Shown here piece after piece: positions 35,279-47,915 of a stretch of DNA of 64,000 nucleotides. A program made the translations under genes and the position numbers. Numbering within the stretch: the first letter of the stretch is position 1; every line of letters starts with the position of its first letter. This DNA is from Gammaproteobacteria bacterium. GTDB lineage: Bacteria > Pseudomonadota > Gammaproteobacteria > Arenicellales > Arenicellaceae. The notes beneath the pieces are model-generated. The model did no database searches, had not been told where the DNA came from, and saw only the letters and a program-made list of their open reading frames with translations. The stretch lies in contig JAKVBA010000027.1 in NCBI GenBank assembly GCA_022447525.1, positions 1 through 64,000 of the forward strand. Direction: 5' to 3'.

Positions 35279-36310
35279 ATGAATGAACTAATACTCACTC
35301 AACCAGACGACTGGCACCTTCATTTTCGCGACGGTGATATGCTCAAAGAAACGGTGCCGGCCACCGATCGTTGTTTTAAACGAGCCATCGTTATGCCGAA
35401 TCTAGTGCCGCCGGTAACTAACAAGAAACAAGCACTGGCGTATCGTGATCGAATTCTCAGTGCCGCATCGGATACCAGCTTTAATCCATTGATGACCCTT
35501 TATCTAACCAATAAGACGACACCAGCAACGATCCGCGAGGCCATTAGTGAGAAAATACCAGCCGCAAAGCTATACCCGGCTGGCGCAACCACCAACTCCG
35601 AAGCTGCGGTAAAAGGCATCGAGTCTTTGTATCCGGTATTTGAAACCATGAGTGAAGTTGGCATGCTGCTGCTAATACATGGCGAAGTAACGCATTCGGA
35701 GATTGATATCTTTGATCGAGAGAAGGTTTTTATCGACCAACACATGGAACCTCTAAGACGACGGTTTCCAAATCTGAAGATTGTGTTTGAACATATAACC
35801 ACGGCTGATGCCGCTGACTTTGTCCTCGAATCAGGCGAAAGAATAGCAGCAACCATTACACCCCAACATCTTCTGTTAAACAGAAACGATTTATTAGTTG
35901 GCGGTGTTCGCCCACACAATTATTGCCTGCCAGTGTTAAAGCGCAACGTACATCAGCAACGATTGCGAGAGGTTGTGGCATCAGGGTCGCAAAAGTTCTT
36001 TTTGGGTACAGATTCAGCACCCCACGCCAAACACGCAAAAGAAAGTGCATGCGGTTGCGCCGGCTGTTACTCGGCCTGGAGTGCGATTGAGTTATATGCG
36101 CAGGTGTTCGAAGATTTAGGAGCTCTCGATAAACTGGAGGGATTCGCTAGTTTTTATGGGCCAGATTTTTACGGTGTAGCGCGTAACACAGATAAAATAC
36201 GTCTGATAAAGGAGAAGTGGACGATACCCGACCAAATTGATCTGCCGGTTGGTGAAAAAATAGTACCGTTTTTTGCCGGCCACGAGGTCAATTGGAAATT
36301 GGCTAGGTAA
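35279..36310 (+). CDS. pyrC: dihydroorotase (PyrC type)
   Basis: It cyclises carbamoyl aspartate to dihydroorotate in pyrimidine synthesis. At 343 residues it is close to E. coli PyrC (348). The metal ligands are H13 and H15 ([11 protein letters not shown]), the Lys in [12 protein letters not shown], later His residues (LIHGEVT, FEHITT), and the metal Asp in [13 protein letters not shown]. It stands alone, divergent from thrS. Confidence 0.95.
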
Positions 36311-36779
36311 TAAGGATAAAAATCAATCACACCCTAGCTGTTTAGTATTTCAGTGGATCGGCAGTAAGCTTAAATTAGATCATCGATCGAGCAATAAATA
36401 GCCTCTCAATAGCTTATCTGAGGTAATTTTGGTCGGTCTAGGTATCCACACCAACGTAATAGGAAGCAAACTCACCGCTCTCTTCATAATAGATGTTTTT
36501 TATGTTTTGGGGCATCAGGAAACTCAGCGGCAAGAAAATCCACAAAGGGCCAGCAAACCCAATATCAAGAACGACTTTTATAATATCTTGGTTTCGATGT
36601 CTTAAAACATAGTTTATCTCTACCCAGTTTTCCTTACAGATAGCGCTATCGTTGGCAACGGTAAATAAAAAAACCAATAGAATTTAGGTGGCTTGGTACA
36701 AATTTGTCGTAACCAAGCAAAAAAGTAGGCAAATAACATTAATATGTCTATCAGCAGTCTGCTCATTCACGATTCACGG
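36311..36779. other. intergenic region between pyrC and the receiver-TonB gene
   Basis: No supported gene is present. A minus-strand frame at 36438-36677 is open but starts at TTG without a ribosome binding site. No repeats or tRNA are seen. The sequence is AT-rich towards the right end. Confidence 0.4.
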
Positions 36780-36788
36780 TGCTATGAT
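36780..36788 (+). promoter_or_regulatory. extended -10 promoter candidate for the receiver-TonB gene
   Basis: TGCTATGAT is an extended -10 element, 46 bp before the ATG. There is no good -35. The gene has a strong GGAGG ribosome binding site. Confidence 0.45.
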
Positions 36789-36833
36789 TAACGGACGATT
36801 AATAAAAACTACAAGTAAAAGGTTGGAGGCAAA

Positions 36834-38588
36834 ATGTCTGAACAGGCAACTTCACCATCTGTGTTACTCATATCAGATGACTCGAATGTAGTGGAAGCCA
36901 TAATCAACGGCAACACTACAGATCTTACGATCAATGCACGTGAAAGTGTTGGGGATGTACTTAAGAATCAGGAACTGCTAGAAAACAACGCCATCGTAAT
37001 CTTAGATTGTGATAGTTGTGGTAGCAATATCGATAAAGCTATCAGTCAAGCAATCGATCTGAAAAAGGCCGATCCAACTCAAGTTCTGATGCTAACGGGG
37101 CAAAAAGAATTTCTCGCAGAAATCTTAAAATCAAATATTCAACCGATCGTTTATCGTGCTTTTAACAAACCTATCGGTGGCAATCAGGTATTCCTAGCAT
37201 TTAAGTCGGCTCTCTCCGTTCATGATGAATTGGTGGCCAAGAAAGAAGCTGGCGAAGACATCATGTTAGTTGGTCCAGCCGAGAATAGAGCTAATCTAGA
37301 TCAACTGGCCGCACAGCAAAAAACCAACCCGGCCATCTATGCGGCGCTTGGCATCGTAGTTCTTGCATTGGTCGCATTTTTGTTCCTTGGCGGTGATGAA
37401 GAGCCCCAGCCACAAATAGTAGTGGATAATTCTTTAGACATTCAACAAGCAGCTGAGGAAGAGATTAATCAGGCTGTAAGTAGAACTAACGAACTCAATC
37501 AATTGGCAACTAACGCCATTCTAGACGGTAGATATATTCAACCAGCCGGTGACAACGCACTTGAGTACTACAATCAAGCTTTGGAAATAGACCCCTATGA
37601 CACAGTAGCCTACGAGGGAAAGAAAACAATCGCTGCGGCAGTTCGTACTAGTTATGATACCTATGTGGCTGACAAACAGTTTGATAAAGCACTGGGGGCA
37701 ATCAACGCCTTAAGACAAATTGAACCACTAAATCTTGAAAATGATCTATTAGCTGAAAGCTTAGGTAAAGAAGCGAGTAACTATGTGAAACAAGTGCAAG
37801 CCACCGGCACAAAAGAAGAAGTCGATGCGATGGCCGCAGTAATCTCCAAACTCGGAGAGCTAGATGGAGATAATAGTGCCTCTAAAGCTTTGGAGGCGGA
37901 ACAAGATTTGTTAGCCAAGATAGATGAGGCCATAGCTTCCGGCAATTTAGTTCCTCCGAAGAAAGGCAATGCCTATCAAATGGTGTCTTCCGCATTGAAA
38001 GGAAATAAAATTAGCCGCGCGAATTCAGAGCCTAGGGTTGAATTGCTAAGTGGGAAATTACTTGCGCTCGCAAACACAAACTTGGGTAACGATAAACTTG
38101 ACGAAGCTGTAAAACTCTCAGCTCTGGTCAAAAGAATCAATCTAAGCAGTGAAGAAAATGAGGGTCTAAGTAAACTAAATGCGGACATTAAGACCAAACA
38201 AGAAGAAATCGCTGCAGCTAATGCCAAATCGGATTCGAAGACAGAAGATGGTAAAGCCGCCCCGGCAGAACAAGTGGCTAAGGTGGAAACCAAACCAGAA
38301 CCACCTAAAATCATACCTGCTAAGGTAATTAAGCGTGCGGCGCCGCGTTACCCGAGTCGTGCTCTTAAAAAAGGTACTGAAGGCTGGGTAAAAGTAAGCT
38401 TTGGAATAACCAAAGAAGGTGTGCCAGTGGATATAAAAGTTGTTGAATCTGAGCCGGTTAAGGTCTTTGATGATGCTGCAATAAAATCCGTTAAAAAGTG
38501 GAGATTTTCACCTGCCAGAAATCAAAGAACGGGCATGCCTGTTGACAGTAAAAATATCTCTACCAAAGTACAATTTCGTTTGAACTAA
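36834..38588 (+). CDS. receiver domain-TM-repeat-TonB fusion protein
   Basis: A 584-residue protein in four parts. Residues 8-130 look like a response-regulator receiver domain with the whole active-site set: acidic pair D15/D16 (ISDDSN), phospho-acceptor D58 (VILDCD), T88 (LMLTG) and K112 followed by Pro (FNKP). Residues 168-186 are the single membrane helix. Residues about 200-470 are helical and contain a TPR-like unit (LEYYNQALEIDPYD) in the periplasm. Residues 496-584 are a TonB C-terminal domain (APRYPSRALKKG, GWVKVSFG, FDDAAIKSVKKWRF). The expected topology is receiver inside and TonB outside. The protein lacks the long Pro-rich spacer of classical TonB. It is separated from the ExbB/ExbD cluster by gapdh on the other strand. 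No histidine kinase is in the window. A role as a phospho-controlled TonB is inference. Confidence 0.75.
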   Translation: MSEQATSPSVLLISDDSNVVEAIINGNTTDLTINARESVGDVLKNQELLENNAIVILDCDSCGSNIDKAISQAIDLKKADPTQVLMLTGQKEFLAEILKSNIQPIVYRAFNKPIGGNQVFLAFKSALSVHDELVAKKEAGEDIMLVGPAENRANLDQLAAQQKTNPAIYAALGIVVLALVAFLFLGGDEEPQPQIVVDNSLDIQQAAEEEINQAVSRTNELNQLATNAILDGRYIQPAGDNALEYYNQALEIDPYDTVAYEGKKTIAAAVRTSYDTYVADKQFDKALGAINALRQIEPLNLENDLLAESLGKEASNYVKQVQATGTKEEVDAMAAVISKLGELDGDNSASKALEAEQDLLAKIDEAIASGNLVPPKKGNAYQMVSSALKGNKISRANSEPRVELLSGKLLALANTNLGNDKLDEAVKLSALVKRINLSSEENEGLSKLNADIKTKQEEIAAANAKSDSKTEDGKAAPAEQVAKVETKPEPPKIIPAKVIKRAAPRYPSRALKKGTEGWVKVSFGITKEGVPVDIKVVESEPVKVFDDAAIKSVKKWRFSPARNQRTGMPVDSKNISTKVQFRLN

Positions 38589-38602
38589 ATTAGTAGAGCG
38601 TC

Positions 38603-38645
38603 AAAAAAGCCGATTGGATTAACTTCAATTCCAATCGGCTTTTTA
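38603..38645. terminator. intrinsic terminator between the receiver-TonB gene and gapdh
   Basis: The arms AAAAGCCGATTGGA and TCCAATCGGCTTTT are perfect complements around an 11-nt loop, with T-runs on both strands. It can serve both convergent genes. Confidence 0.88.
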
Positions 38646-38740
38646 TTTATCTGTAGTCTATCGAGCTTGTTAAAGCCAGATAGGAAACCCCATCAAGAAA
38701 CTGAGGTAGCTGAGATCCGACTATTTCAGCAACGGGTTTT

Positions 38741-39736
38741 TCATGACTTATACATGATGAGTGCCGTATCCAACATCCGATTAGAAAAACCCCACTCATT
38801 GTCATACCACGCCTGCACTTTATATAAACTTCCAACCTGCCGAGTCTGCTCTAAGTCCACAATACATGAGGCTGGATTGTGGTTGTAATCAATACTTACT
38901 AATGGCTGAGAGCTTAATTCAAAAACCTTTTTTCTACCTTGCGCGTATTGTTTAAAAAGACCGTGAATTTCATCTATTGAGCTTTGAGTTTCAGGCAGGA
39001 AGGTAAAGTCCAAGAGTGAAACATTTAATGTAGGCACTCTTACTGCTACCGCATCAAGCCTCCCCTTTACCGCAGGAATAACACTGGAGATTGCTTTTGC
39101 CGATCCCGTAGAGGTTGGAATCAGCGAATAGGCAGCAGCCCTGCCTCGTCTTTTGTCCTTGTGGAAGGAATCCAGCAAGTTCTGAGTGTTTGTGTAGGCA
39201 TGCACTGTGGTTACAAGGCCAGACTCTATACCTACAGCGTCGTGCAGGGCTTTAACTATGTGAGCCAAACAGTTGGTGGTGCAAGACGCGTTGGAGACTA
39301 GGGTATCATTGGCGTCTATCTCCCCATGATTCACTCCATATACGATTGTTTTGTCTAGTTTTTTTCCTGGGGCAGATACCAATACTTTCTTTGCGCCAGC
39401 CTTTATATGTAAACCAGCTCCGTCGCGAGTTCGAAAAAAGCCCGTGCACTCAAAGACCACATCGACATTCAGCGATCTCCAGGGGAGTTCTTCAGGATTT
39501 CTCTGAGAGAATACCGGGATGGTGTCTCCGTTAATGGTAATAGTATCATCGTCATACTCTAGCTGTTCAGTAAAGCGTCCATGCGTAGTATCAAAAGCGA
39601 GTAGATGAGCATTGTTTTCTGTTGGCGCTAAATCATTAATTGCGACAACTTGCACTCTGTCTGAATACCCCCCTTCATATATTGCTCTTAAAATATTTCG
39701 GCCGATTCGACCAAATCCGTTTATGGCTATTTTCAT
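38741..39736 (-). CDS. gap: glyceraldehyde-3-phosphate dehydrogenase, type I
   Basis: It oxidises glyceraldehyde-3-phosphate with NAD(P) and phosphate. The 331 residues have the Rossmann start INGFGRIGRN, the catalytic Cys152 in NASCTTNC, the His in TVHAYTNTQ, and the phosphate-binding and S-loop region GRAAAYSLIPTSTG. The TVHAYTNTQ and S-loop sequences favour GAPDH over erythrose-4-phosphate dehydrogenase, but Epd activity cannot be excluded from sequence. GAGAGG precedes the ATG. It lies between two halves of the TonB region without an evident functional link. Confidence 0.88.
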   Translation of the reverse strand: MKIAINGFGRIGRNILRAIYEGGYSDRVQVVAINDLAPTENNAHLLAFDTTHGRFTEQLEYDDDTITINGDTIPVFSQRNPEELPWRSLNVDVVFECTGFFRTRDGAGLHIKAGAKKVLVSAPGKKLDKTIVYGVNHGEIDANDTLVSNASCTTNCLAHIVKALHDAVGIESGLVTTVHAYTNTQNLLDSFHKDKRRGRAAAYSLIPTSTGSAKAISSVIPAVKGRLDAVAVRVPTLNVSLLDFTFLPETQSSIDEIHGLFKQYAQGRKKVFELSSQPLVSIDYNHNPASCIVDLEQTRQVGSLYKVQAWYDNEWGFSNRMLDTALIMYKS

Positions 39737-39927: not shown

Positions 39928-40338
39928 TCAATTCTTAGCTAGCGATATCGTCGGAGCCTGTACACCAGCTGCTTTGATACCATCCACTACAGCAATGATG
40001 GCTTTAGTCTTAGCCTTCTTTTCAGCCTTAATGACTACCGACGCCTCAGGTCGCTCGGCTTTTAAACGAGTTACTGTTGCCTTAATCGCTCGTTTATCCA
40101 GCAAACGGTTATCTATTCTTATTTCACTGAGATTGTTAATCTCAACCACAATAGGTCTCGGCGAATCCGGATCCGGTGGAGTGTCTGTTACTGGCGGTTT
40201 GTTAAGATCCAAACCAGACTCCTTCACGAAACTTGCGGTAACAATAAAGAAGATAAGCATGATGAACACCACGTCAAGCATAGGGGTGATGTCAATATCA
40301 GCTTCTTCTTCGTTTTGTTGCTTACCTAATCTTTTCAT
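39928..40338 (-). CDS. exbD: ExbD/TolR-family proton-channel subunit (second copy)
   Basis: A 136-residue biopolymer transport protein. The basic N-terminus is followed by one membrane helix with the essential Asp (ITPMLDVVFIMLIFF). A periplasmic domain ends in AKTKAIIAVVDGIKAAG. ExbD dimers sit inside the ExbB pentamer and couple proton flow to motion of TonB. Its membrane segment is nearly identical to that of the other ExbD in this cluster (44761-45165), so the two are paralogues. It starts 26 bp after the second TtpC-type gene with GAGGA upstream. Confidence 0.9.
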   Translation of the reverse strand: MKRLGKQQNEEEADIDITPMLDVVFIMLIFFIVTASFVKESGLDLNKPPVTDTPPDPDSPRPIVVEINNLSEIRIDNRLLDKRAIKATVTRLKAERPEASVVIKAEKKAKTKAIIAVVDGIKAAGVQAPTISLAKN

Positions 40339-40364
40339 TATTTATTCCTCGGATAGAAGCTTTG

Positions 40365-41816
40365 TTAGCTTTGTGACTCGTACTTCAAGGCGACAAGTCC
40401 AGCGGCTTGCTCTTCTAAAATACCTTCTATGTTCTTAGCTTTATTTGAAACCAACCAATGAGCAAACACTGATGGGATTGCAACAACTAAGCCAAGCACT
40501 GTAGTGACCAGAGCCTGAGAAATACCACCGGCCATGGTTTGTGGATCACCGGCACCATACAAAGTGATTGCTTGGAAGGTTTGAATCATACCAGTTACAG
40601 TACCCAATAATCCCAATAATGGAGCCACTACCGCAATAATTTTGATAAACATCACCCAACGATTTATTTTCGGCGATTCTTTTAACATTGCCTCGCCCAA
40701 ACGGAGTTCGAGAGATTCCGGATCGGACTTTGGGTTGTCTTGGTAGACCTTGAGAACACGACCAAGAGGGTTGTTCAATGAAGGTCTCTTCATATCACGC
40801 GACTGCTTCTTAACGGCAGATTGAACACCCATCAGCATTAGATACCTTACAGCAGCTATCACCAGTGCGATTAAACCTAAGGCCATGATCACGTAGCCTA
40901 CAATACCACCTTCCTCTGCTTTTTCATTGAGAGAGGGTTTTTGAACGAGAGCCTGTAACAAGCCACCACGTGCAGGATCGATCATAAACGATGACGTACC
41001 CGCGGATAATTCTTGCAGAGCATTAGAGGCCTTGTCGTAGTCTCCTCCCATTTGTCGCTCTAGGGCTACGAAGCCTTGACCGTCTTTGTAAATAAGGTTG
41101 TCATCACCGGTTATGGCGTTAAAAACACCTATTCTAGTGACAGGTTTCTCGACAACCTCGTAGATTGCCCTTTCCTCACCAGTTGGCTTACCGTTTTCAT
41201 CAACCACTGGGTCGCCATTTTCGTCCAGTACCAGCTCATACCCGGTGACGAAATTAACAGGAGCATTATAAGTAACAATCTTACCTTGCTCTGTCATCTC
41301 ATTCTGCAATTGAACCCACAGATCTTCTATTTCGTCAATGGATACCAGCTCGGTTAGACTGGCCATTTTTTCTACCATTAGACGTAGATTTTCGGCTCTC
41401 TCAGGGTATTGGGCGCTTATTAGCGATGTTTTGTAATCTTCTTGTGCCTCGGAGGCTGATAACTGGATCACACCAAACAGCTGCTTTAAGTCGCCTAGCT
41501 CACGACGCAAGTCTTCTTGTAATTTGAGAATCTTAGCGTCATTTTGATCGAAACGCGCTTCTAACTCTTTAGAAATTCGTTCTTGTCGGATTCTCTCGTT
41601 AGTCATCGACGTCAAACGACCCTGTTCTCTGTTTTTGTCGGCACGAAATCGGTTCTCGCGAGCTCTCTCAGCATTTCGATCTTTAGTTGCACCCGACTGA
41701 GCAGCGCGTAAAACCTCATCAATATTGATGGCTTGCGCTGACGCTTGAAAAGTAGTCGCCGCATAAGATGCTACGATCACACTACTGACAGCAGCGACTT
41801 TTAATACATTTAACAT
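40365..41816 (-). CDS. TtpC-type ExbB/TolQ protein with long periplasmic N-terminus (second copy)
   Basis: A protein of about 483 residues. It has a signal peptide (residues 1-27), a coiled-coil periplasmic region at about 40-120, then an insert with two acidic DENG turns (DENGDPVVDENGKP, near residues 198-211) absent from the first copy. A MotA/TolQ/ExbB channel domain of three helices follows in the last 190 residues (VVAPLLGLLGTVTGMI). In Vibrio, TtpC works with ExbB2-ExbD2-TonB2. The ATG at 41816 follows the DUF3450 stop by 1 bp and has GGAG upstream; the longer frame overlapping DUF3450 was rejected. The DENG insert could bind calcium, but no complete EF-hand is seen. Confidence 0.85.
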   Translation of the reverse strand: MLNVLKVAAVSSVIVASYAATTFQASAQAINIDEVLRAAQSGATKDRNAERARENRFRADKNREQGRLTSMTNERIRQERISKELEARFDQNDAKILKLQEDLRRELGDLKQLFGVIQLSASEAQEDYKTSLISAQYPERAENLRLMVEKMASLTELVSIDEIEDLWVQLQNEMTEQGKIVTYNAPVNFVTGYELVLDENGDPVVDENGKPTGEERAIYEVVEKPVTRIGVFNAITGDDNLIYKDGQGFVALERQMGGDYDKASNALQELSAGTSSFMIDPARGGLLQALVQKPSLNEKAEEGGIVGYVIMALGLIALVIAAVRYLMLMGVQSAVKKQSRDMKRPSLNNPLGRVLKVYQDNPKSDPESLELRLGEAMLKESPKINRWVMFIKIIAVVAPLLGLLGTVTGMIQTFQAITLYGAGDPQTMAGGISQALVTTVLGLVVAIPSVFAHWLVSNKAKNIEGILEEQAAGLVALKYESQS

Positions 41817-41817
41817 T

Positions 41818-42600
41818 TTATATCTTCTCCGGCGCAGCAATTGGTAGAGTCATAAGATCTTTTGGAGCCTTTCCGACACTGATACGAATCGCTTGGCTTA
41901 TACCCTCATTGTGAGCCACATCGAGTATTTTCCACTGCTTGTCGCCCTTATCCCAAAAGCCGGACTCCGTTCCATCGATTGTTTGGTAATAAAGTCCCGC
42001 TCGGCCCACTTGTAGAATATTGACGGTTCGTTTGCTTCCGTCAAGATCAAGCTCTTCGGTGTAAACATCAACAGTCTTGCCGTAAGTGTTCTCTGTGGCA
42101 TAGGCATCTAACACCTGACGAAATCTTTCGGCAGCGGCAATATTAGCGTTGGTTAAATAACCTTTGATACGCTGAACTCGCGCTTTTCGCTCATCCAGTT
42201 TAAAAGGAATATCAGCCTCAATAAAAGACTCCAATCCGCTAATCATACGCAGCATTAAAGGAACAATTTGGCGCTCGATCAAAGAGGCATCTTCAATTGA
42301 ACGCTCTAATTTTGCCATGGCGACTTCTTGCGCTTGTAAAGTTCTTCTTAGTCGATCGTTAAATTTCTTCAACACCTCAACGCTTTTTCGCTGCTGGTGA
42401 TATTTGGATATCACTTTTTCGGTGTCTTCAGAAATCTTATTGATTCGGTTTTGAGATGCTACCGCCGACTTTCCTCGCTGAACGCCAGCCCGAACTATGT
42501 CGTCGGTTGCGTCCGCCCAGGCTGTGGTCGGAACTAATGCAATCAATGTAAACCCGATCACTCCTGCTTTAATTTTAGACTTAAGTACTGATGTACTCAT
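41818..42600 (-). CDS. DUF3450-family periplasmic coiled-coil protein (second copy)
   Basis: A 260-residue exported protein. It has a signal peptide (residues 10-29, GVIGFTLIALVPTTAWA), a long coiled-coil at about 35-110 (KVISKYHQQRKSVEVLKKF) and a compact C-terminal domain with GRAGLYYQTIDGTESGFWD. DUF3450 proteins occur next to TtpC-type ExbB genes in marine gammaproteobacteria. They probably form part of the periplasmic section of the motor; the exact role is unknown. It is a paralogue of the protein encoded at 47226-47915. AGAGG precedes the ATG. Confidence 0.85.
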   Translation of the reverse strand: MSTSVLKSKIKAGVIGFTLIALVPTTAWADATDDIVRAGVQRGKSAVASQNRINKISEDTEKVISKYHQQRKSVEVLKKFNDRLRRTLQAQEVAMAKLERSIEDASLIERQIVPLMLRMISGLESFIEADIPFKLDERKARVQRIKGYLTNANIAAAERFRQVLDAYATENTYGKTVDVYTEELDLDGSKRTVNILQVGRAGLYYQTIDGTESGFWDKGDKQWKILDVAHNEGISQAIRISVGKAPKDLMTLPIAAPEKI

Positions 42601-42693
42601 ACTTAACCTCTTGTTAATCTATATCGCTTGGGCCTTAAACCAAAATCGATATTTATTTTTGTGTTCTCTTAAGAGCTACGCTCAACTCTGTTT

Positions 42694-44058
42694 TTATGTG
42701 TCAGCCGGTTCTACGTCTGTATTGATGACAATTTCTTTCTTCAATTCAGCTTCACGAGCCATTTCAGCTTTAACATACGTAATCCAGTTGTTAGCCGTCT
42801 TTGTCACTTTGTCATAGCGAAGCGCCTTGTTAAAAGTACCTAATGCTTGCTTGGGTCTCTTTAATTCAAACTGAACCAAGCCTAAACTAAGAGTGGTTTG
42901 CCCAACGTCTCGCAATCCACCCTTGTTCAACGCCCGTTTGAGAGCACTTTCCGCGTTTCGCCATTGATTTAAGTTAATATAGGCTTGACCAAGTTGGTCA
43001 TCGAGCTTGCCGTCTTTCGAGAGCTTTGCCGCTTGTGAAAGCGGCGCGAGAGCCTTCTCAAATTCTCTGGCGGCATAGAGAGCTTGGGAATAGGTACGAT
43101 AGTTCTTTAATGTTTTCTTTAATACACCGTCGTTAAAACCCTTTTCCATAACCTGAGATGCTTTAAAAGGATTTTCTAAATTCATCATCAATGAAGAGAC
43201 GGTATTTATTTCTGATTCAGAAGAGAGCATACCTTGGTCGTACATGGCTAAATAAATCGCGGCCATGCTGTTGAGATCATCCAACTCGTTGAATACGTAT
43301 CCCATCGACAACAAATAGTTTTTCTTTGGGTAATGAGTAACCAGCTGCTTCAAAACCGGCAACATTTTTCTGTACTGCTTCTTTTCTCTGTAAATACCAC
43401 TCAGTAGGTTCAACCATCCTTCCTTCGGGATACTTCCAGCTTCGCGGTACTTATTAATGCCTTGTTGCACCATTGGTAAGGCTTGATCGTACTCTTTTAG
43501 CTGATAATGAGCTTGACCAATCAACATATATGCGTCCGCTGACGGGTCCTCTTGAGTCTTAAACCAACGTCGTGCGTATTGCAGCGCCTCTCGGTATTTT
43601 TCTTGCAAAAACAATACTTGGGCGACTTGGTAAAACATCTGATTTTGAAATGCTTCAGAGATACCCTCATTAATGTTGGCAACTCGTTTGAAGTTATTCA
43701 ACGCACAATTTAGATTATCTTGCGTTAAGCAAATGCTGCCGCGAAAGTTCCATAGATAGGCACTTTCGATATTATTGAGGTCTTCCTGAGCAGCAAGTCT
43801 ATTCAATTGGGCTGTAGCCGTGGCTATGTCGTTAGCATCCAAAGCCTCGCTCGCTTTCTCAAATACCTTTACGTTTTTGGCTCGAATCGACTCCACTCGC
43901 CTTGCTTTACGTTTCGGCTGCTCGCTCTGTGCATATGCCGTTTGCGAGTCGGAAAGTACGACCTCAAACGACGCCGTTAGCGGCAGGACAAAGGCAGCTA
44001 ACGCTACTGCCTTAATCGCGCCTTTGATCGCTTTGTTAATACTAGTGATGCTAGTCAT
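42694..44058 (-). CDS. periplasmic TPR protein of the TonB cluster
   Basis: A 454-residue protein. It has a signal peptide (residues about 14-40) and about nine TPR-like helix pairs. Clear units are DAYMLIGQAHYQLKEYDQAL and YINLNQWRNAESALKRAL. It ends in a Glu/Lys-rich tail. In Vibrio-type TonB2 loci a TPR protein is encoded near TonB2 and assists energy transfer, and the same is likely here. It comes 96 bp after TonB and 93 bp before the second DUF3450 gene, so it lies at the joint between the two modules. Confidence 0.82.
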   Translation of the reverse strand: MTSITSINKAIKGAIKAVALAAFVLPLTASFEVVLSDSQTAYAQSEQPKRKARRVESIRAKNVKVFEKASEALDANDIATATAQLNRLAAQEDLNNIESAYLWNFRGSICLTQDNLNCALNNFKRVANINEGISEAFQNQMFYQVAQVLFLQEKYREALQYARRWFKTQEDPSADAYMLIGQAHYQLKEYDQALPMVQQGINKYREAGSIPKEGWLNLLSGIYREKKQYRKMLPVLKQLVTHYPKKNYLLSMGYVFNELDDLNSMAAIYLAMYDQGMLSSESEINTVSSLMMNLENPFKASQVMEKGFNDGVLKKTLKNYRTYSQALYAAREFEKALAPLSQAAKLSKDGKLDDQLGQAYINLNQWRNAESALKRALNKGGLRDVGQTTLSLGLVQFELKRPKQALGTFNKALRYDKVTKTANNWITYVKAEMAREAELKKEIVINTDVEPADT

Positions 44059-44154
44059 ATTACTTCACCTTTTAATTTTATTTTGGATAGGTCAACCGCC
44101 CCCATCCTAAAACAGCTTTTCAGCCCCTACTGCTGTCTAGTAAAGGCCGAAAAC

Positions 44155-44757
44155 TTAGCAGTTTCCACCGTCCATCTCGAACTTGATTCGGATTGGCACG
44201 TTGGGAACATCAACGGCTTTTCCACCCACTTGACGTGGTTTGTACTTATACTTTTCCGCTGCCTTTATCGCCGCTCTTTCAAACATCTTTGATGAGCTTG
44301 CGGTTACCACCGCGTCTTTAGTACCACCAGCAGCCGTTACCGTATATTTCAATTCAACCCATCCACAAAGGCCACGTTCAGCAGCTCTTCGAGGGTAGAC
44401 TGGAGGTGCACGAAAAATAGGCAGGTACTCGCCATCATTGGAGTTAAAGCCTTTTGTGCTCGTATTGATACCGATCTTGACAGCCCCCAAAGCCAAACTG
44501 GCATCAATATCTACCTGGTCAGGTACGATATCGCTTTCAGGCAAGTCGGGAGCCTCTTGGACCTCATCTGGACGTTCAGGTTTGGCCGTAATTGTTTCCA
44601 CGTCTTCGTTTTTTGGGATAAACGAAAACTCAGGCAACTTTATCGCTTTTGAGTCGCCCAAATCCGGTTCTTTCATTTTGATCAGGGCATACATACCACT
44701 GATCAGACCGAGAGTTATGAGCCCGGAAAGTAGAAATGAAGATAACTTTTGAACCAT
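44155..44757 (-). CDS. tonB: TonB energy-transducing protein (TonB2-like, short)
   Basis: A 200-residue short TonB. A membrane helix lies at 12-28. A Pro/Glu-rich spacer of about 70 residues follows, shorter than in classical TonB. The C-terminal domain (about 115-195) has PVYPRRAAERGLCGWVELKYTV and FERAAIKAAEKYKYKPRQ. It passes energy from the ExbB/ExbD motor to outer-membrane receptors. Short TonB2 proteins with TtpC are known in Vibrio. Two cysteines (one in the GLCGW turn, one at the C-terminus) may form a disulphide. It starts 3 bp after ExbD with GGAG. Confidence 0.9.
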   Translation of the reverse strand: MVQKLSSFLLSGLITLGLISGMYALIKMKEPDLGDSKAIKLPEFSFIPKNEDVETITAKPERPDEVQEAPDLPESDIVPDQVDIDASLALGAVKIGINTSTKGFNSNDGEYLPIFRAPPVYPRRAAERGLCGWVELKYTVTAAGGTKDAVVTASSSKMFERAAIKAAEKYKYKPRQVGGKAVDVPNVPIRIKFEMDGGNC

Positions 44758-44760
44758 AAT

Positions 44761-45165
44761 TTACTCCGACTTGGTAGAAATGCGCGTCACTTGAATGCCG
44801 GCATCTCTCAATTTATCGACCACCTCTAGAACCGCTTCGGCCTCAGAGTTGATATCGGCTTGAACCATGATCTCGCCTTCTGGGTTTTCGGCTCGCAAAC
44901 GCCCTAAATTCGCCTTGATAGCTCTGGGGTCAATTTGCTGACGATCCAGCCATATATCATTATTTTCATCGATAGCTAACAAAATACTAGCGCGCGGGCG
45001 TTTTTCACCATTAACCGCTTCTGGCTTGATTACTTTGGCCCCGCTCTCTTTAATAAAGCTGGCTGTTACGATAAAAAAGATAAGCATGATGAACACTACG
45101 TCCAACATCGGGGTGATGTCGATTTTAGCGTCTTCATCCTGCCTGCTTCTTAATGCTCGTCTCAT
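44761..45165 (-). CDS. exbD: ExbD-family proton-channel subunit (first copy)
   Basis: A 134-residue protein. A cytoplasmic N-terminus is followed by one helix with the essential Asp (ITPMLDVVFIMLIFF) and a periplasmic domain with VQADINSEAEAVLEVVDKLRDAG. It forms the rotor or plug of the ExbB channel. The TonB gene follows after 3 bp, so coupled translation and a dedicated partnership are likely. Confidence 0.92.
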   Translation of the reverse strand: MRRALRSRQDEDAKIDITPMLDVVFIMLIFFIVTASFIKESGAKVIKPEAVNGEKRPRASILLAIDENNDIWLDRQQIDPRAIKANLGRLRAENPEGEIMVQADINSEAEAVLEVVDKLRDAGIQVTRISTKSE

Positions 45166-45272
45166 TTTTTTCTCCTATCTTGGGGTAAGCAATGTCTATC
45201 AATGACTTACGCCCAACTCATAATAAGGATGTTTTGGTCACCGCATTTCGATGATCTATCTCATCTCAATGC

Positions 45273-45797
45273 TTAGTGATCAAGTGTCAAGTGCTCGTTG
45301 ATAAGCTCTCTCTCTTGCTCTGTTTTACGCTGCAACCAGAAGCTCAAAAAGAGCCCTGAGAGAGCCGCAACCATTCCCGCCATTGTTGGAACGGTCGCTC
45401 TTGATACACCCCCGGCCATTGCTCTGGCATTACTGGTACCAGTAACAGCCATTACTTGGAACACTTCGATCATACCTGTAACGGTTCCCAGCAGCCCAAA
45501 CAGTGGAGCTAAGGCAACACAAGCCTGTATCATCGACAGGTTTTCCCGTAGCTTTGAACCTACGTTTGAAACCAATTGCTCTCGAACTTGATGCGCCGCC
45601 CATGAGCTGCGCTCAGAACGTGCTTCCCATTCATCGATAGCGGATTTTACCGCCTCTTTATGCGGGCCGTTGATATACATAATTCTCTCTAGAATCATGT
45701 ACCACATCACAACCAGTAGTGCAGCTATCAAATAGAGTACCGGGCCACCGAGCTCCATAAAGTCGCGGATGTACTCGAAGAAGGCTTTTATATCCAT
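45273..45797 (-). CDS. exbB: ExbB-family proton-channel protein (short, ExbB2-like)
   Basis: A 174-residue ExbB/TolQ protein. The N-terminal helix GPVLYLIAALLVVMWYMIL is followed by a cytoplasmic loop and two further helices with ACVALAPLFGLLGTVTGMIEVF and the ATVPTMAGMVAAL region. It forms the stator pentamer around ExbD. Only the first module has this short ExbB. AGAGG precedes the ATG. Confidence 0.92.
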   Translation of the reverse strand: MDIKAFFEYIRDFMELGGPVLYLIAALLVVMWYMILERIMYINGPHKEAVKSAIDEWEARSERSSWAAHQVREQLVSNVGSKLRENLSMIQACVALAPLFGLLGTVTGMIEVFQVMAVTGTSNARAMAGGVSRATVPTMAGMVAALSGLFLSFWLQRKTEQERELINEHLTLDH

Positions 45798-45886
45798 CTT
45801 ACTGAACCTCTGTCTCTTTAGTTATCAGCATAAGCAACCGTATTTGTCTACAGTCGCTTATGCATTTACCAGAGACCGAAAGCGTT

Positions 45887-47224
45887 TTAGCCTTCGATCT
45901 TACGCGCCACCATACCAGCGGACTGCTCTTCAAGAATTTCTTCAACACGCTTTGCTTTAGACGCAGCGGCTGTATGAAGCAATACGATCGGAATCGCCAC
46001 TACCAAACCACATACTGTGGTTACAAGTGCCTCTGAGATACCGCCAGCCATCAACTTGGGATCTCCAGCGCCAAACAGGGTGATCGATTGGAAAGTGGTG
46101 ATCATACCGAGAACGGTACCGAGCAGGCCACCCAGTGGAGCAACCACAGAGACAATCTTCAAGAACATTAACCAAGAAGTAAGCTTGGGGGTTTCTTTCA
46201 TAATAGCTTCAGACAATCTCAGCTCGACGGCTTCAGTGTCGTTACTCTTGGTATCTGCGGCAGCTTGCAAAACTCTGCCTAATGGATTTTTATCATCTGG
46301 AGATTCAGGATCAGCAGCTTGCTTCTTAACTGCCGCTGCAACTCCAAATAAAGTAATAATCTTAATGATCGCCACAATGGCTGCAAACGCACCCACACTC
46401 AAAATTATGTAACCAACGGTGCCACCTTGAGCAACACGGTCACCCAGACTTGGGCTTTCAACCGCCGCTTCTAGTAACGTACCCAAAGTTGGGTCAAGTG
46501 CAAATTCAGCGGTACCTGATCCATTAAAAAGATTGGTGGCTTGAGCCAAGTAACGACCGTCAGGTTGCTTTGGTAAATCAGCTACACCGCCAGCGCCGTA
46601 AGTTAGGAACTTACCGTCTCCTATCAAGTTGAAGGTTCCAACACGAACAACTTCTTGCTCTTCACGCGCGCCACCAGCAGTGGCTACAGAAGCGTTAAAC
46701 TTAGCCACCTTGCCTTGCTGGACCATCTCGTTAAACATCGCCTTCCACAACGACTCGATTTCTGCCGCAGACACTAACTCATTTGATTGATTAGATACTT
46801 TTTTAGAAATCTCAGCGAAACCCGCTGTGCGGTTTGGAAATTGAGCTGAAATAATCGACCCGTCGAATGTTGCCTCTGCTTCGCCAACCACCTGTTGAAC
46901 TGCGCCAAACAACTCTTTGAGGTCGCCAAGTGAACGTTCTCGAGCGACACGCACCGCATTCAGCGCCACACTATTTTGCTCATACTGGTTCTCGAGGGTT
47001 TCGCTGGTTGCCTCTAAACTTGCACGTTGCGCTCTAATTTGCTGGAGCAAATTAATTTTACCAGCACCCGCGGCCGCAAACTGATTTTCGAGCGCTATCG
47101 CTTCTTCGCTTTTTTCGAAAGAGCCGCTTCTAACTTGTTCTAATAGCTGGTCTACAGTCTGAGACTGCGCAGGCACAGCGATAAATGCTGCCGCAAGAGC
47201 AACGATTGATAATAAACGCTTCAT
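45887..47224 (-). CDS. TtpC-type ExbB/TolQ protein with long periplasmic N-terminus (first copy)
   Basis: A 445-residue protein. It has a signal peptide (residues 1-21), a coiled-coil periplasmic part of about 200 residues, then a membrane helix (GTVGYIILSVGAFAAIVAIIK) and the MotA/TolQ/ExbB domain (VVAPLGGLLGTVLGMITTFQ, GGISEALVTTVCGLVVAIP). Its C-terminal 150 residues are clearly related to those of the second copy, but it lacks the DENG insert. It begins 1 bp after DUF3450, the same spacing as in the second module, with GGAGG upstream. Confidence 0.88.
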   Translation of the reverse strand: MKRLLSIVALAAAFIAVPAQSQTVDQLLEQVRSGSFEKSEEAIALENQFAAAGAGKINLLQQIRAQRASLEATSETLENQYEQNSVALNAVRVARERSLGDLKELFGAVQQVVGEAEATFDGSIISAQFPNRTAGFAEISKKVSNQSNELVSAAEIESLWKAMFNEMVQQGKVAKFNASVATAGGAREEQEVVRVGTFNLIGDGKFLTYGAGGVADLPKQPDGRYLAQATNLFNGSGTAEFALDPTLGTLLEAAVESPSLGDRVAQGGTVGYIILSVGAFAAIVAIIKIITLFGVAAAVKKQAADPESPDDKNPLGRVLQAAADTKSNDTEAVELRLSEAIMKETPKLTSWLMFLKIVSVVAPLGGLLGTVLGMITTFQSITLFGAGDPKLMAGGISEALVTTVCGLVVAIPIVLLHTAAASKAKRVEEILEEQSAGMVARKIEG

Positions 47225-47225
47225 G

Positions 47226-47915
47226 TTATGAGCCCTCCGGAGCGTTGATAGTCAAGCTCAACAATTCTGGTGCAACCGTTTTCGCCGCCACCTTGATGGC
47301 TTTGCGCACATCACGATTAGTGCTTTCAGGAAGAATCTTCCACTCTTTGTTGACATTGTCAAACATGGCGGATGTCTTCTGATCTAAAGTTTGATAATAG
47401 AGCCCGACTCGACCGATACGCAGCATTTGTACGGGCTGATCGTCGATTACCGAGTCATATGCTTCATAAGTTGTTCCGTACTCCATCTCAGCTGAGTAGA
47501 TGTCCATGATTTGGCGATAACGAACTGACGTACTCGCCGTGGGATCCAACATTAACTGCTTCAAACGCGACAAGCTGTCTTGACGCTCTTCTAGCCTGAA
47601 AGGAAGATCCGCTTTAACAAAAGCATCGAGTGCGGCTAACATTTTTTCTAGTAAGGGAGCCACTTGTGGCTCAAGACCCTTTGCGGATTCTATCGACGCT
47701 TGGATTTCGTCTCTGGCTTGGGTTTGGGCTGCCAATTGATCGCTCAACTGAGCGTTGTAAACTTTCAAAGCTTCGACCAACTTCAGCTCACGAGCAAACT
47801 CGCTATCGACCGACTGGCCGCCTGCTGACTGCGCCCACACAGTGGTTGCAGCGATCGTTGAGATAGCAACACCCGCTATCGCACGACCAATCCAATTCAA
47901 CACAGATTTTTTCAT
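47226..47915 (-). CDS. DUF3450-family periplasmic coiled-coil protein (first copy)
   Basis: A 229-residue protein. It has a signal peptide (residues 10-28), a coiled-coil at about 40-90 (QLAAQTQARDEIQASIESA), and a C-terminal domain with GRVGLYYQTLDQKTSAMFD, the same motif as in the second copy (GRAGLYYQTIDG). It is the first gene of the nine-gene TonB run. AGAGG precedes the ATG. The molecular role is unknown; association with TtpC is the only clue. Confidence 0.85.
   Translation of the reverse strand: MKKSVLNWIGRAIAGVAISTIAATTVWAQSAGGQSVDSEFARELKLVEALKVYNAQLSDQLAAQTQARDEIQASIESAKGLEPQVAPLLEKMLAALDAFVKADLPFRLEERQDSLSRLKQLMLDPTASTSVRYRQIMDIYSAEMEYGTTYEAYDSVIDDQPVQMLRIGRVGLYYQTLDQKTSAMFDNVNKEWKILPESTNRDVRKAIKVAAKTVAPELLSLTINAPEGS

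Follow-up and report, generated by a model that had tools for sequence, protein, structure and literature searches.

A TonB-family protein with an N-terminal pseudo-receiver domain in Arenicella and other gammaproteobacterial lineages

The window analyzed here is a stretch of 64,000 nucleotides from the genome of a marine gammaproteobacterium of the genus Arenicella. The gene of interest is located at 36834-38588 on the plus strand and encodes a protein of 584 amino acids with an ATG start. A Shine-Dalgarno-like GGAGG (36825-36829, plus strand) can be read ahead of the ATG. The predicted product is an inner-membrane TonB-family protein with a cytoplasmic N-terminal pseudo-receiver. A transmembrane helix and helical repeats connect this domain to a TonB C-terminal domain (TonB_C).

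An intact full-length ortholog is present in 14 of the 17 Arenicella congeners searched, with identities of 43-74%. In the same 17 genomes, the ortholog of G006 is split over two contig ends, and none was found in G016, whose genome is 81% complete. G004 has a diverged syntenic ortholog with a frame broken before TonB_C (L075:11296-12848; 445 + 94 aa), which may be an assembly error or decay. A fusion artefact or frameshift was ruled out by the same single frame in 14 congeners, the contig-split copy in one more, and purifying selection on the receiver.

The Arenicella locus has the order thrS-pyrC-(terC-like)-gene-(pgi)-gapdh-exbD2-ttpC2-DUF3450-TPR-tonB-exbD-exbB-ttpC. This synteny is conserved, and the exb cluster is found near the gene wherever the contig reaches. 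In the window, the neighboring cluster is of the TonB2/TtpC type and is made up of exbD2, ttpC2, DUF3450, TPR, a short tonB, exbD1, exbB1, ttpC1, and DUF3450 (39928-47915, minus strand). It encodes one TonB, against two TtpC-like MotA/ExbB proteins, one ExbB, two ExbD, and two proteins of the DUF3450 type. Membership of the receiver-TonB gene in an exb-ttp operon was ruled out, as the cluster is on the opposite strand beyond gapdh. The first-pass annotation of the window had raised the idea that homologs always accompany DUF3450-TtpC-ExbD genes. This is the case in Arenicella where the contig reaches, but not at the paralog loci or in a second order, where the neighbors differ from the exb cluster.

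Systems of this type are known from Vibrio TonB2 (PMC6957404). They share with the protein studied here a TonB C-terminal domain on one N-terminal transmembrane helix, and such a cluster lies near the gene. The short TonB, however, has neither a folded cytoplasmic domain nor long helical repeats, and the window gene is outside the exb operon.

In congeners, a TerC-family gene and pgi lie on either side of the gene. Both are absent from these places in the window (36310-36834 and 38588-38741), and the genome has pgi on a different contig. Several congeners have two exbD-like genes side by side (L062:10252-11242, L063:13521-14560, L064:6534-7644, L065:14767-15873, L066:14859-15810, and L067:14650-15749), compared with one in the window.

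The receiver-fold domain covers residues about 8-138 (36855-37247, plus strand). AlphaFold modeling of residues 1-145 with 22 homologs gave a complete (beta-alpha)5 fold (pLDDT 87.4, pTM 0.83). Receivers and CheY-like domains made up 48 of the best 50 Foldseek matches in the PDB (best E 1.2e-6, TM 0.77). A profile of 15 orthologs matched the receiver 3kcn (E 0.004), and the alignment placed D58 and K112-P113 in register. Pfam Response_reg (PF00072) gave no match above the cut-off in the 15 orthologs, window protein included, while a homolog in G226 does match it. As an argument against a receiver, the absent Pfam match was overruled by the agreement of profile, AlphaFold, and Foldseek, and the receiver fold proposed in the first-pass annotation is borne out.

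Receiver codons gave a pN of 0.13 and a pS of 0.88 against L002, and 0.12-0.13 and 0.85-0.88 against the two nearest relatives. In four of four comparisons, the receiver had a lower pN than the repeats, and its pN was similar to or smaller than the TonB_C value. These codon comparisons show strong purifying selection on the receiver.

Taken alone, the window protein possesses D15, D16, D58, T88, K112, and P113. Conservation was assessed across 42 receivers, among them those of Arenicella paralogs, another genus in its family, G303, and the second order. The counts are not independent, because the sequences share ancestry and certain sets contribute many of them. D58, the phospho-acceptor position (37005-37007, plus strand), is Asp in 40 of 42 and is, by entropy, the most conserved column of the domain. 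Of the D15-D16 acidic pair (36876-36881, plus strand), D16 is kept in 38 of 42; D15 is not conserved and is replaced by Ala or Ser in nine orthologs. K112-P113 (37167-37172, plus strand) has Lys in 32 and Pro in 38 of 42. D16, D58, K112, and P113 are invariant in the 15 aligned orthologs. Grouped by lineage, six of seven groups retain D58, the exception being G303, whereas families f194 and f205, one f29 member, and G303 have lost K112.

T88 (37095-37097, plus strand) behaves differently. Thr is found at this position in three of 42 receivers, and the other 39, most of the distant homologs included, have a non-polar residue (Val, Ala, Leu, Ile, or Phe). Among its orthologs, the window protein is the only one with Thr, and the other 14 have Val. 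The window gene has ACG here and relatives have GTA or GTT, a difference that requires two or more base changes. The position of the aromatic residue three before Lys (K-3) is Ala109 in all Arenicella orthologs, and the Y-T aromatic pair is therefore absent even in the window protein.

A receiver domain in which at least one of the five catalytic residues is missing is called a pseudo-receiver (Bourret et al., PMC12632262). Since T88 is not conserved, the family is, as read from the alignments, one of pseudo-receivers by this definition, while the window member formally is not. The family pseudo-receiver may have kept phosphate-acceptor chemistry, with the Y-T switch absent. The full active-site set described in the first-pass annotation is thus present in the window sequence and D58 and K112 are widely kept, but the set does not extend to the family. 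Of the three residues whose non-conservation was named at first pass as a ground for refutation, T88 fails, while D58 and K112 hold. An intact cytoplasmic phospho-switch, as proposed there, is not what the family receivers encode, with T88 missing and the K-3 aromatic replaced by Ala.

In mechanistic terms, that proposal is a TonB in which a histidine kinase or Hpt domain phosphorylates D58 and thereby alters coupling to ExbB/D or to outer-membrane receptors. This is unlikely, even though the window protein has all five catalytic residues and both Arenicella and the largest other lineage conserve D58, D16, and K112-P. With no conserved Thr and no aromatic partner, coupling by the Y-T route is improbable, and the losses of D58 in G303 and of K112 in several lineages also count against it.

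The single transmembrane helix is at residues 167-185 (37332-37388, plus strand). The modeled helix covers 167-184, and the most hydrophobic 19-mer is 167-185. Lys/Arg on the N side and Asp/Glu on the C side indicate an N-in/C-out orientation. This is consistent with a predicted topology in which the receiver is cytoplasmic and TonB_C is on the periplasmic side.

TonB and TolA engage their motors using a motif of the type Ser-X-His-X-Leu-X-Ser (PMC12204202). No such Ser/His (SHLS-type) motif is observed in the 15 Arenicella orthologs, whose helix contains no His. The His is present in TolA and the C151 TonB-like protein of the same genome, so the motif check is able to find it. The Ser/His motif is likewise missing from the genome's two short TonBs, one of which belongs to the TtpC-type cluster, and its absence is therefore not decisive on energization.

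Predicted periplasmic helical repeats follow at residues about 201-468 (37434-38237, plus strand), placed by model, Pfam, and homology. The region is helical in the model, and its TPR matches are weak (best E 0.006). The repeat module is homologous to that found after the transmembrane helix in PknB-like Ser/Thr kinases of several families. Kinases of this kind are encoded at L078, L079, L080, L081, L082, L084, L085, and L097.

The TonB C-terminal domain is made up of residues 503-584 (38340-38585, plus strand). Pfam TonB_C (PF03544) matches residues 503-583 with E 1.2e-17 and 64.5 bits against a cut-off of 24.6, and TIGR01352 matches with 58.6 bits against 27.1. The TonB C-terminal structures 7zc8, 1u07, and 2gsk match at TM 0.80-0.90. 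Receptor-binding TonBs can be aligned with the domain, YP and W-R-F stretches included. The genome holds 28 TonB-dependent receptor plug domains, a point in favor of a phospho-switched TonB. Of the domain calls made at first pass, the single membrane helix in this orientation and the TonB domain stand. The TPR-like helices do so as helices, their assignment to TPR being weak.

The shared repeats raise the possibility of signaling in the opposite direction. TonB_C and the repeats would sense the state of the outer membrane or periplasm, and the pseudo-receiver would be the cytoplasmic output, by analogy with the PknB-like proteins that have a kinase in its place. A transmembrane helix without the Ser/His motif, unlike TolA and the C151 protein, fits this idea. 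The short TonBs show that a helix of this kind leaves energization possible, however, and the alignment with receptor-binding TonBs also points elsewhere. Outside-in signaling is thus a doubtful reading.

The architecture is not confined to this genome, as full-length cases are found in other lineages. A first class-wide search was swamped by unrelated TonB_C domains, and a broader profile (A4) with a stricter threshold was used. The same full domain order is present in the second genus of the family (G019) and in G303. It also occurs in the order of G226, where it extends over several families and many genera. Members of f172 have two receivers ahead of the transmembrane helix, and members of f194, f205, and f29 have one. 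In all four f172 loci examined, thrS lies immediately upstream of the homolog, a position that suggests vertical descent. The full architecture was not found in other families of the window's own order, and a thin sample of 299 genomes across the phylum gave no further full-length case at E 1e-25.

Relatives with the transmembrane helix, repeats, and TonB_C but without the receiver exist, and the homolog of G518 (L162) has the receiver and repeats without TonB_C. Neither end is therefore indispensable in every lineage. No published description of a TonB carrying a receiver was found in the open-access papers searched. The first-pass annotation likewise knew of no TonB with this architecture; that part stands, and the recurrence in other lineages is new. 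The architecture is apparently a conserved, undescribed variant of the TonB family.

The neighbors of homologs and paralogs include signaling genes. In three f29 genomes (G381, G518, and G567), the homolog is beside a CheA-like kinase (Hpt + HATPase_c), a CheY, and a CheX phosphatase (clusters at L160:6045-10981, L162:3032-7428, and L168:520-6709). In G005 and G012, the Arenicella paralog is oriented divergently from genes for a histidine kinase and a FixJ-type regulator, a pair checked with Pfam in G005 and judged in G012 by similarity of the listed ORFs. The G005 paralog is between a stand-alone receiver-like protein, upstream, and a TonB-dependent receptor gene, downstream. The stand-alone protein has 182 aa and the same degenerate receiver (L073:8095-8640). 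No kinase or receptor gene is alongside the gene at the window locus, where the neighbors are housekeeping genes and the opposite-strand exb cluster.

Kinases, CheY, and CheX as neighbors speak for phosphorylation of D58, but the adjoining CheY proteins are likelier phosphate acceptors, and the window locus offers no kinase. The same co-location would be unexpected of a purely structural envelope tether, in which TonB_C would attach to a partner in the outer membrane or cell wall, with the pseudo-receiver serving for anchorage or dimerization and no signaling. Such a tether is very improbable. Retention of D58 where K112 or D16 is lost (f194, f205) does suggest a structural role for this residue, and SjdR of Anabaena is an example of a TonB-like protein whose role lies outside transport (PMC8262864).

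The reading favored here, at a probability of about 0.55, is that the pseudo-receiver serves a TonB-like transducer as its cytoplasmic docking or dimerization module. A cytoplasmic partner would bind it and control the transducer, which would span the periplasm and bind an outer-membrane partner using TonB_C. With D58, D16, and K112 kept, Mg2+ binding and phosphate acceptance could still occur. Control would more probably be exerted by the binding of proteins, a change of multimeric state, or a different surface of the domain than by the usual Y-T route. A docking module is favored by the fold and its structural matches, the strong purifying selection, and the conservation of D58 while T88 is not. 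It is also favored by recurrence in other lineages and by the kinase/CheY/CheX and histidine kinase/FixJ/receptor neighbors. The lack of a kinase or receptor at the window locus and the dispensability of either end in some lineages count against it. Protein-interaction mechanisms have been proposed for pseudo-receivers (PMC12632262).

Pseudo-receivers and atypical response regulators, e.g., FrzS, share with this family the receiver fold and the absence of at least one of the five residues, here at the family level (PMC12632262; PMC1974792). Here, instead, the receiver is joined through a membrane helix with a TonB domain, and its acceptor Asp is near-invariant. PknB-like Ser/Thr kinases have homologous repeats directly after the transmembrane helix, but possess a kinase where the receiver sits here and have no TonB_C. 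GltJ of the Myxococcus gliding machine carries cytoplasmic regulatory domains. GltG and GltJ resemble the present family in having a TonB_C-like motif on a membrane protein (PMC9389320). They differ in having no receiver and in being part of a motility motor.

The receiver-TonB family is more widespread and less canonical than was held at first pass. Control of TonB is usually seen as a matter of gene expression and receptor occupancy. If the proposed function is true, a signaling domain on the transducer itself would be a fast and direct route from the cytoplasm to outer-membrane work, or the reverse. It is conceivable, though we consider it improbable, that these proteins are a widespread, undescribed TonB-family class in which a receiver-type domain exerts control from the cytoplasm. 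With a CheA/CheY/CheX-like phosphorelay connected to it in some lineages, a chemosensory or two-component pathway would then gate outer-membrane energy transduction directly, without transcription. The family is also a natural series of receivers, with five, four, or fewer catalytic residues, in one or two copies, and with or without TonB_C, in which pseudo-receiver function may be studied.
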